Shown: positions 30,396 through 40,278 of the stretch, in pieces | How positions within the stretch are numbered: the first letter of the stretch is position 1 | Layout: the number at the start of each line of letters is the position of its first letter | From: an uncultured Alphaproteobacteria bacterium | GTDB taxonomy: Bacteria > Pseudomonadota > Alphaproteobacteria > RF32 > CAG-239 | Direction of reading: 5' to 3' | Length of the DNA stretch: 49,058 bases | NCBI GenBank assembly: GCA_900540425.1 | Contig: UQFU01000002.1 | Coordinates: 1 to 49,058 of the forward strand | Position numbers and translations under genes: made by a program | The notes under the pieces: model-generated | What the model was told of the DNA's origin: nothing | The model's input: the letters and a program-made list of their open reading frames with translations, nothing else | Database searches by the model: none

Positions 30396-31508
30396 ATGAA
30401 AAAAACAGCAATCAGATTATCCTTAACCGCCATCTCCGCAATGATAATGAGCGGCTGCAGCTTTACGTCGGACGCTTTGTTCCCTTCTTTGCTCGGCTCG
30501 GATTCTCAGGAGGAAATGGCCGCAAGTGGAGATTTCAAAGCCACCGGAGCCGCGCTTCCGGAACTTGGATCGACAAATTTTGAACCGGTCGAAGTTTCCG
30601 AAGGCAGCAATACCGGAACTTTTGTCGGGCAAAAGGTTGTCGGCTTCCGTAACGAACTAAACCAGCTGCAAAAGTCAATCCGCGCTTATAATGAAGAATT
30701 GCAAAAGGTTCGGACTTCCGTCATCAATAATGCTATGCAGTATCACAAAACCATTGGCACCATTGAGGCCAAGCTCCAAGTCGGAACCACCCCCGGAAAC
30801 CCCCAGATGTTTACGCTTTTGCAAAGTGCCCAAAATAACATTCAGACCATGAATGCCAATACCATTGCTCTGGAGCGTTTGTCTTCAAAGGTAACGTCCG
30901 ATTCTGCAATGACGACATATCTGCTGGATTCAATCCGGGCGGCCTACAGCGTCTCTGGAGCCGTTGATGAAGATCATCGCCAGTTGCGGATTTTGGAAAA
31001 TGAGACCAATCAGACTTCTATTCTGATCAACAGCCTGTTGAACGAGGTCAACAGCGATATCAGCCGCCAGCGCCAGTATATTGAAAGCGCCAAAAACAAT
31101 ATTGTGGATTTGAGCGAAGCGATCAAAGTCGGCAGTTACGGTGTTAATAATGTTCCTTTCTCTGCTGTCAGCAATGTCCGTTCTTCCGCCTATGCCCCGG
31201 TTTCGTCCGCAGTTGCTTCCGGAAAACCGCTGTTTACGGCGAAATTTAACAAAAGCAACGTAAACTACCATGATGGACTGCGTCAGGCTGTTCGCCAAGC
31301 CCAGTCGGCAAAACCTTCGGTTCGGTTTAATGTTGTGGCCGTATCGCCGGTTGGCGGCAGCCAGTTGAGCAAGAAAAATGCTCAAAATCATGCCGGTACC
31401 ATTTTTAAGGAAATGGTGGAAATGGGTGTCGGTGCCGATCGCATCAGCCTTTCGGCACGCAGCAGCGATGAGGTTGCTTCTTCCGAAGTGCAGATTTTTG
31501 TAAAATAA
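30396..31508 (+). CDS. Large putative lipoprotein with a possible OmpA-like C-terminal fold
   Basis: The N-terminus MKKTAIRLSLTAISAMIMSGC is a lipoprotein signal with Cys at residue 21. After a Ser/Glu-rich linker, residues 80-245 form long amphipathic helices (FRNELNQLQKSIRAYNEELQKV, NEVNSDISRQRQYIESAKNNIVDL), probably coiled coil. Residues 280-370 alternate strands and helices (FTAKFNKSNVNYHDGLRQAVRQAQ, RFNVVAVSPVGG, GVGADRISLSA, SEVQIFVK), like OmpA-type periplasmic domains, though without their usual peptidoglycan-binding motif. No family name can be given. The gene is a single unit with its own terminator. AAAGG lies about 11 nt before the ATG. Confidence 0.8.
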   Translation: MKKTAIRLSLTAISAMIMSGCSFTSDALFPSLLGSDSQEEMAASGDFKATGAALPELGSTNFEPVEVSEGSNTGTFVGQKVVGFRNELNQLQKSIRAYNEELQKVRTSVINNAMQYHKTIGTIEAKLQVGTTPGNPQMFTLLQSAQNNIQTMNANTIALERLSSKVTSDSAMTTYLLDSIRAAYSVSGAVDEDHRQLRILENETNQTSILINSLLNEVNSDISRQRQYIESAKNNIVDLSEAIKVGSYGVNNVPFSAVSNVRSSAYAPVSSAVASGKPLFTAKFNKSNVNYHDGLRQAVRQAQSAKPSVRFNVVAVSPVGGSQLSKKNAQNHAGTIFKEMVEMGVGADRISLSARSSDEVASSEVQIFVK

Positions 31509-31521
31509 ATTCGGCTGTTTC

Positions 31522-31557
31522 AAAAAAAAGCCTCCGGGATTCCCGGGGCTTTTTTTA
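31522..31557 (+). terminator. Terminator of the 30396 lipoprotein gene
   Basis: GCCTCCGGG and CCCGGGGC pair with one bulge, flanked by eight A and seven T. Confidence 0.85.
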
Positions 31558-31642
31558 TGTCATATCGTTGAATTTATATTTTTTTTAATATTTTATTGAT
31601 ACTGTCAAATAAACAAATTTCTGCCCCGAGGTATATTTCATT

Positions 31643-33740: not shown

Positions 33741-33920
33741 AATGGCGGATAGAGAGGGATTACTCTGCGCTGCGCTTGAGTTGCACAGGCGCTCATTCAC
33801 TCCGCTCACCGGCGTTCTCCCGCCCGCCTTTCGCTGGTAGTCGAACCCTCTTCCCTAGGGTTCAAATCCAACTCCCCTCATCATTATCAGTAAACCCCGC
33901 ACAAGGCGGGGCTTACTGAT
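33741..33920. repeat. tRNA-Ser-derived interrupted repeat unit (unit 1)
   Basis: The 21 bp at 33741-33761 are an exact copy of 33921-33941, the 3' end of the adjacent tRNA-Ser(GGA) including CCA. In the copy the T-loop is broken after GGGATT by an 80-nt GC-rich insert (33762-33841). Tcgaaccctc-type tRNA sequence resumes at 33842-33850, exactly as at 33942-33950, and then diverges. A 7-bp inverted repeat (GAACCCT/AGGGTTC) follows. The unit fills most of the 348-bp gap after the antiporter gene, where I see no credible protein gene. It may be a small mobile or structured repeat that entered a tRNA copy. Attachment-site remnant is the alternative. Confidence 0.6.
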
Positions 33921-33923
33921 AAT
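33883..33923 (-). terminator. Long hairpin directly 3' of tRNA-Ser
   Basis: Two 18-nt arms (33883-33900 and 33906-33923) pair around a 5-nt loop. The single A/C mismatch on plus becomes a G-U pair in minus-strand RNA, so the hairpin is complete in the tRNA-Ser transcript. It touches the CCA end; no T-run follows. Likely an end-of-transcript or processing structure. Confidence 0.5.
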
Positions 33924-34013
33924 GGCGGATAGAGAGGGATTCGAACCCTCGGTACCCTTTGGGGGTACACACGATTTCCAATCGTGCGCCTTCGACCACT
34001 CGGCCATCTATCC
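33923..34013 (-). tRNA. tRNA-Ser (anticodon GGA)
   Basis: A 91-nt class II tRNA on the minus strand. The acceptor is GGATAGA/TCTATCC, the anticodon stem CACGA/TCGTG holds the loop TTGGAAA, a long GTACCC...GGGTAC variable arm is present, the T arm is GAGGGTTCGAATCCCTC, and CCA is encoded. It reads UCC and UCU. Confidence 0.96.
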
Positions 34014-39899: not shown

Positions 39900-39975
<76 letters not shown>

Positions 39976-39980
39976 ATTCC

Positions 39981-40010
39981 AAAAAAACCGTCCTGAGAGG
40001 GCGGTTTTTT
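39981..40010 (+). terminator. Terminator of tRNA-Ala(GGC)
   Basis: ACCGTCC and GGGCGGT pair around TGAGA with A-run before and T-run after. It separates this tRNA from the repeat unit and tRNA-Ala(CGC). Confidence 0.9.
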
Positions 40011-40018
40011 ACTGCAAA

Positions 40019-40202
40019 GGGGCTGTAGCTCAGTTGGGATGGCTAAGCGAAAAGACCCCCGGCGGGGTGTTTTCGTCTGTAACATCTTGGCTGCCTTGCC
40101 GAGAAAGGGAAGCGGGAGCAACCGCAACGAGGTTAGGCACCCAAGGCGAATGGTTCCATTCGCTTGATGAAAGTCGAAATTATTTTGAATTTAATACATA
40201 AT
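40019..40202. repeat. tRNA-Ala-derived interrupted repeat unit (unit 2)
   Basis: The 21 bp at 40019-40039 exactly copy the 5' end of tRNA-Ala(CGC) (40203-40223). Inside the D-loop the copy is broken by a 106-nt GC-rich insert (40040-40145), after which tRNA sequence GCGAATGGTTC resumes (40146-40156 versus 40226-40236) and then diverges. The insert is structured. It has a 12-bp hairpin with one mismatch (CGAAAAGACCCC/GGGGTGTTTTCG) and an outer stem CTTGG/CCAAG with an inner GCCT/AGGC (40086-40145). A perfect inverted repeat GCGAATGG-TT-CCATTCGC follows. No protein gene is credible here. Like unit 1 it is about 180 bp and touches a tRNA. It may be a mobile or regulatory RNA-like repeat. Confidence 0.6.
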
Positions 40203-40278
40203 GGGGCTGTAGCTCAGTTGGGAGAGCGAATGGTTCGCAATCATTAGGTCGGGAGTTCGATCCTCCTCAGCTCCACCA
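40203..40278 (+). tRNA. tRNA-Ala (anticodon CGC)
   Basis: A 76-nt gene. The acceptor is GGGGCTG/CAGCTCC, the anticodon stem AATGG/TCATT (one G-T pair) holds the loop TTCGCAA, the T arm is GGGAGTTCGATCCTCCT, and CCA is encoded. It reads GCG. No clean promoter is visible just upstream; transcription may start in or before the repeat unit. Confidence 0.93.

Follow-up and report, generated by a model that had tools for sequence, protein, structure and literature searches.

In an uncultured alphaproteobacterium, a copy of the 5' end of tRNA-Ala(CGC) stands ahead of the complete gene and runs into a structured insert; this feature is probably a single unit from a family of small mobile repeats, which enter tRNA genes as well as certain other sites and copy part of the target as they do so. 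The window, as the term is used here, is the whole stretch of 49,058 nucleotides that was analysed. As judged from the aligned units, a conserved and covarying core is placed between two copies of the tRNA end, so that the gene behind it stays whole. In most units at tRNA genes, the tail that follows the core holds, first, the sequence lying right of the insertion point as a direct copy and then a reverse complement of the insertion region, both of which follow the identity of the target tRNA. The case for mobility is drawn from distribution and retargeting; no jump was observed. The family is apparently without a name so far, none having been found in the literature searched or in Rfam (for the window and eight further loci).

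The unit is 184 bp long, is single in the window and adjoins the tRNA gene, all parts being on the forward strand. The left target copy, GGGGCTGTAGCTCAGTTGGGA, comprises the first 21 nt of tRNA-Ala(CGC) on the D-arm side (40019-40039) and equals 40203-40223 base for base. It is broken by an insert of 106 nt (40040-40145), after which GCGAATGGTTC resumes at 40146 and matches the gene from 40226, exactly as the preliminary description had placed these coordinates. The structured core, ATGGCTAAG-hairpin-CTGTAACATCTTGG...CCCAAG (40039-40145), scored 120 bits with model R1, a value given by construction as the window unit is a training sequence of R1. The direct copy of the target right of the insertion point, again GCGAATGGTTC, occupies 40146-40156 (an 11-nt match to 40226-40236) and is followed by the reverse complement of the target (40156-40164), in which CCATTCGCT pairs with AGCGAATGG over 9 nt corresponding to target positions +2 to +11. 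An AT-rich spacer (40165-40202) leads to the intact tRNA-Ala(CGC) (40203-40278; ARAGORN, and Rfam RF00005 at 63.2 bits), the first 21 nt of which are the right target copy. By reading, ATTATTTTGAA or near variants occur in several Ala units. An upstream tRNA-Ala(GGC) located by ARAGORN (39900-39975) carries no unit. The inverted repeat GCGAATGG/CCATTCGC noticed earlier exists, but as one hairpin just 3' of the insert (40146-40164) and not as a border at both of its ends.

At the Rfam gathering score, only tRNAs matched in the window and no family covered the insert, nor was a family found for the core in eight further loci. A permissive Rfam search of the window gave chance-level matches and one weak match to the permuted tmRNA (RF04321), nothing being relevant to the core. 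The tmRNA match bridges 39948-40027 at 24 bits, below the gathering score of 47; it differs from a true member in that it is accounted for by the 3' half of one tRNA-Ala with the 5' half of another behind it, and no tag region was seen by reading. A weak R1 match elsewhere in the window (31483-31563; 18.6 bits, E 0.023) lies over a terminator-like hairpin and is likely due to chance.

An intron-like reading had also been entertained earlier. The break does lie in the D-loop and tRNA sequence does pick up again after the insert; however, the interrupted copy has no tRNA 3' half, neither T-arm nor acceptor follows GCGAATGGTTC, and the complete gene is found 184 nt downstream, which makes a split or intron-containing tRNA scarcely conceivable. 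With introns of 0-300 nt allowed, ARAGORN found no gene in 39991-40202 and the intact gene only at 40203-40278. Assignment as a tRNA intron or split tRNA, which requires exons that join to a full tRNA, was rejected for the tRNA-Ala copy.

The hairpin and the CTTGG/CCAAG stem that had been proposed for the insert are both present and both covary among related units, and the tRNA-Ala stretch folds better than its shuffles (z -3.2; 0/200 shuffles as good). In an alignment of 28 units, 96.7% of cells were paired and double-sided changes were seen in 16 of 30 pairs; none of 500 shuffles reached any of the five structure measures, and sliding the partners reduced pairing to 35-48%. These 28 units were chosen by sequence pattern, for which reason the outer three pairs are invariant there and the invariance of the search motif is no evidence. 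The outer three pairs of a wider set read ATG/CAT, AGC/GCT, AAC/GTT, GGC/GCC and GGT/ACC, a variation that is description and not test since pairing at these positions was required for inclusion. The predicted fold of the core is thus backed by covariation. The conserved core also rules out tandem duplication followed by random drift, the alternative against which the preliminary description had set its own reading.

Related loci were reached through the neighbouring ELM1 gene. A first ELM1 protein scan of genome contigs gave 14 pattern matches and no relative; an alignment-based scan led to 80 loci, almost all from metagenome-assembled genomes and many of them ruminant by title. A strict pattern, ATGGCTAAG-gap-CTGYAACATCTTG, was present in 26 of 268 relatives and a looser one, GCTAAG-stem-TCTGYAA, in 51 of 139 related genomes, with a maximum of 21 copies (in G007) and none for the reversed-pattern controls. 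Every one of these 51 falls within the 79 genomes that precede G155 in the list (2.0 Mb or smaller), and the other 60 have none. A phylum-wide sample gave one match in 398, namely the centre genome itself, and the covariance model matched 7 of 385 class genomes when at most ten candidates per genome were scored, three of the seven being without a loose-pattern match or outside that list. Among 23 viral contigs with TCTGYAACATCTTGNNTNYCTT, the sole unit was at a tRNA-Ala on L081, a contig from a viral collection; reading of the surroundings in the remaining 22 showed these to be unrelated. Plasmid BLAST with the Ala unit gave no match.

Across the family, units are about 150-270 bp long and share one layout: the core GCTAAG-hairpin-CTGYAA, a short direct target copy, the insertion point copied as reverse complement, then a spacer and a second tRNA-end copy. 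Two loci (L001, L002) have two tandem units before the same tRNA-Ala(CGC), 85-87% identical to the window unit by BLAST, and tandem copies are 96-99% identical to each other within each of the four loci compared (L001, L002, L088 and L098). Both tRNA-Ala genes are present without a unit in L005, L007, L029 and L030. With homologues in dozens of genomes, covariation, many tRNA targets, tandem copies and presence or absence between related genomes, the earlier wording of a structured RNA or mobile repeat tied to tRNA genes was borne out, as were the two checks suggested with it, a search for further copies (51 of 139 related genomes by the looser pattern) and covariation in aligned copies (0/500 shuffles on all five measures for the 28 units). 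In one genome, two units face each other about 200 bp apart, and the same arrangement is found on two of its contigs (L211; G018:C6 and G018:C21).

Units in the D-loop, in sense orientation, were seen at tRNA-Ala(GGC), Ala(CGC), Glu(TTC) and Val(GAC), and units at the 3' end, in antisense orientation, at Arg(CCT), Ser(TGA), Ser(GCT), Gly(CCC) and Phe(GAA; left copy drifted); further units form foldback arrangements beside Asp, Val(CAC) or Ser(GCT), or occupy non-tRNA sites. ARAGORN placed a tRNA within 250 nt of 45 of 95 distinct units, a biased rate since some loci are short and the set was partly chosen via tRNA-rich hits. By reading, most insertion points are RGG|A. In 42 of 99 units there is no second target copy nearby.

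Complements to the target were counted in 34 distinct of 36 non-tandem units, out of 54 with a target copy and 99 units in all; the left copy at Arg has drifted and was therefore not used as target. For the longest complement to the unit's own target, 20 of 27 tRNA units reach 7 nt or more (mean 8.0). In comparison, this was so for 17 of 378 cross-target pairs (mean 5.2) and for 327 of 5400 shuffled tails. Since units at the same tRNA type share descent in part, these counts are not independent. In the other 7 of the 27, L088 and L220 included, the complement is only 5-6 nt, and the 7 of the 34 units that have no tRNA label and lie outside the 27 have longest complements of 5, 6, 6, 5, 7, 7 and 6 nt. 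Among D-loop units, 14 of 20 have a direct target copy of at least 8 nt; cross pairs gave 0 of 228 and shuffles 25 of 4000. In several units this copy continues out of the paired stem and on through loop bases (up to 14 nt), an indication of copying from the target and not of selection for pairing alone. By these comparisons, the tails match their own targets well above controls, with exceptions. In G039, the cores of the Ala-GGC and Ala-CGC units are 95% alike and are 70-87% alike to the 11 other units compared, and despite the like cores each of the two tails matches the tRNA at which it lies. The retargeting seen there might be imitated by gene conversion that made the cores of two old insertions alike.

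Divergent units at L153 and L154 (G226 and G342; around 1501) lie antisense upstream of apparently the same gene (product MNLSKG..MFSGSRALENKIDEFLDRISEAG by eye) and so share a non-tRNA location. By reading, the tails of the non-tRNA units of L151, L164, L226, L200, L204 and L237 are longer and show recurring GTACAT..GTACATGA-like and CTGTATTAG-like motifs; these longer-tailed units are perhaps a larger form of the element.

The window contains a second repeat of this layout at tRNA-Ser, to which the preliminary description had likened the tRNA-Ala case. The layout is indeed the same and the copy-to-gene spacing similar (184 nt at tRNA-Ala, 180 nt at tRNA-Ser), but the two cores differ in sequence. 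The left copy of the tRNA-Ser 3' end, antisense to the tRNA (TGGCGGATAGAGAGGGATT, 33743-33761, forward strand), is identical to 33923-33941 and is followed on the reverse strand by the repeat itself (33762-33922), made up of a core, a direct copy CGAACCCTC (33842-33850), an inverted copy AGGGTTC (33857-33863) of 7 nt and a terminator-like spacer, and by the intact tRNA-Ser(GGA) (33923-34013, reverse strand; ARAGORN). This repeat (33743-33922) appears to be a divergent unit of the type of RtT RNA (RF00391): it scored 26.3 bits against that family, below the gathering score of 45 (E 0.0083 in a 701-base search), and has, in AATCCCTCTCTATCCGCCA, 19 nt identical to the tRNA 3' end, within the 18-19 bp that characterise the E. 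coli repeats described below. Similar units stand at the tRNA-Ser genes of L002, L036, L047, L053 and L063; their inverted target copies measure 9-10 nt and agree with the local tRNA, whose stem is GAGGG or GTGGG. As control, only four cross pairs differed sufficiently (6, 6, 6 and 7 nt). RF00391 matched in E. coli only among 14 control genomes and in none of 6 genomes of alphaproteobacterial relatives.

One tRNA-Val(GAC) (L105, 1501-1876) bears a GCTAAG-type unit in its D-loop and an RtT-type unit at its 3' end. At tRNA-Ser(TGA), the related genomes G002 and G001, whose DNA next to the gene is 85% identical, are not alike. G002 has a GCTAAG-type unit there; in G001 the 330 nt read contain none, the place being taken by an RtT-type unit whose inverted target copy is 17 nt long.

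In E. coli, 22 tRNA-linked repeats (TLRs) have been reported at ten loci, each with 18-19 bp of the gene 3' end, and as a family they have no known function so far according to one account (PMC8144298). These repeats have the layout of the units described here: TLRs, including RtT RNA at tyrT, are units of about 98-178 bp (repeated end included) that lie behind tRNA genes, every one repeating the gene end; they are in tandem at tyrT, and the tyrT, lysV and lysQ units also have an inverted tRNA-end copy besides the direct one. The tRNA-Ala unit is likewise a small unit of a kind that stands singly or in tandem beside a tRNA gene. However, TLRs copy the 3' end, while the Ala unit lies in the D-loop and takes its 21-nt copy from the 5' end, and the cores are unlike, no match up to E 10 being obtained for R1 against the tyrT locus or for RF00391 against the Ala unit. 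The tRNA-Ala unit thus appears to work like a TLR at the other gene end and with another core, as a variant of that kind and not a member. In E. coli K-12, the inverted target copies are 10 nt at tyrT and 13 nt at lysV and lysQ, so that 3 of 9 testable TLRs reach at least 10 nt (argV, which is cut, and argY, whose hit spans argZ, being left out); argQ, argZ, lysT, lysW, lysY and lysZ have complements of 5-6 nt. The control from cross pairs is not a clean one: because T-arms are alike, 8 of 68 attain 11 nt (46 genes tested), and the E. coli match may therefore not be target-specific. A TLR has also been placed behind the rrnB 5S gene (PMC8144298), where the 18-nt criterion used here missed it and gave no repeat.

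The E. coli work bears on a reading in which the units are a host RNA feature, that is, processed small RNAs or processing signals of tRNA transcripts that were spread by ordinary duplication, with ribonuclease recognition keeping the repeated end and the inverted copy closing the fold. Three TLRs are reported to be transcribed and processed and to be bound by Hfq and CsrA, recognition of the repeat by RNase E has been proposed, and the three are treated as sRNA genes in a main text from which the words 'transposon', 'mobile' and 'insertion' are absent (PMC8144298). Many of our units adjoin tRNAs and their fold is conserved. However, units also occur antisense to tRNAs and at non-tRNA sites, at up to 21 per genome, their presence differs between related genomes, and the direct copies that pass the paired stem into the loop fit poorly with such a role; we consider this reading unlikely.

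The direct repeats of the tRNA end that flank the unit, and the tandem units, recall the attachment sites of integrated phages or islands, of which the units might be remnants. The RtT-type tRNA-Ser unit (33761-33905) matches 3 of 50,697 phage records, all 'Bacteriophage sp.' from human faeces (H11-H13), at up to 89.7% over 87 nt. But the units are small and geneless, one core is found at many tRNAs, and for the Ala unit plasmids gave no match and phages nothing beyond matches of 21-24 nt (10 records). Inverted target copies are not known to be part of phage or island attachment sites, which counts further against this origin, and we regard it as very improbable. With the E. coli RtT query, phage records gave no match and 32 plasmid records matched; in the four of these that were read, three repeats lie beside purU and the fourth beside the Lrp-type gene of the third, with no new tRNA site.

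Candidate mobilising enzymes were scored in 20 element-rich and 20 element-free genomes (by the looser pattern), which may be incomplete. Y1 transposase was found in 9/20 rich and 6/20 element-free genomes (15/40), without tracking copy number, and the reverse transcriptase domain RVT_1 in 8/20 and 5/20 (13/40), without tracking the units. IS110 recombinase matched in 5 of 40 genomes, likewise without tracking the units, and exceeded the Pfam cut-off in one; the four sub-cut-off hits lie in frames of more than 1400 aa, and that of L247 looks like a dehydratase activase by reading and is not Cas9-like. The element-rich genomes G006, G009 and G014 have no match to Y1, RVT_1 or IS110, and G007 has no Y1 or RVT_1 match and a sole sub-cut-off IS110 hit in an unrelated long frame. 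REPINs of the REP-RAYT system resemble the units as short, non-autonomous hairpin elements with many intergenic copies (PMC3116915), but they are tied to a Y1-type transposase, for which element-rich G006, G007, G009 and G014 have no Pfam Y1_Tnp match, and long target copies are not mentioned in the available part of that source (PMC3116915). Assignment of the units as REPIN/RAYT, retroelement or IS110-type found no support in the 40 related genomes, where the enzyme that each requires did not track the units. A far second target copy, as might mark an autonomous form, was found once, 342 nt away, most loci reaching only 1.5-3 kb, and no excised or intermediate form of the unit was seen. The mobilising enzyme may be encoded elsewhere.

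The bridge RNA or seekRNA of IS110 elements is a structured RNA with target-complementary stretches, in which it resembles the units; IS110 elements use a 2-bp core, whereas the units copy the target end at about 20 bp or more. The inverted target copy could be a guide, in RNA or single-stranded DNA, that steers an enzyme to the next target. Own-target complements often lie at or across the insertion point (at Arg, GAGAGGACT spans -6 to +3; at Glu, AGGACACCA spans -3 to +6; Gly by reading), and the RNA fold is conserved. Against guidance, the direct copy includes loop bases that no guide needs and looks like a copying footprint, the inverted copy is short in L088, L220 and E. coli argQ and lysT, and no associated effector was found among the Y1, RVT_1 and IS110 searched in 40 genomes. 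We hold RNA-guided insertion to be distinctly improbable.

For mobile repeats that copy their target, we would propose the following course. The element would copy part of its target at each insertion, and the second end-copy would act like a long, variable target-site duplication that restores the tRNA, which may be the reason such insertions survive. The snap-back copy of the target could be made by hairpin (foldback) synthesis or template switching, an RNA or single-stranded intermediate being among the possible routes. The junction would re-create the original target site, so that tandem arrays could arise there by the insertion or duplication of further units. The same kind of process may have produced the tRNA-Ser repeat as well as the RtT/TLR repeats of E. 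coli. A bolder proposal is that the units and the E. coli TLRs form an unrecognised class of self-retargeting mini-elements, whose core, on each entry into a tRNA gene, would take up the landing site's two strands as a foldback and restore the gene end. The captured strand could then guide re-insertion in tandem, the enzyme being a host or trans-acting one. We think this quite unlikely, in part because the E. coli cross-target control is not clean.

In E. coli, repeats linked to tRNA genes have been on record since 1978. That their layout recurs with another core and at the opposite end of tRNA genes, with target copies that change with the host tRNA, would make them a class of mobile element that can be tested. 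Should the captured strand serve as a guide, this would be a new kind of self-programming insertion; if it does not, the foldback would be a readable footprint of the insertion reaction.
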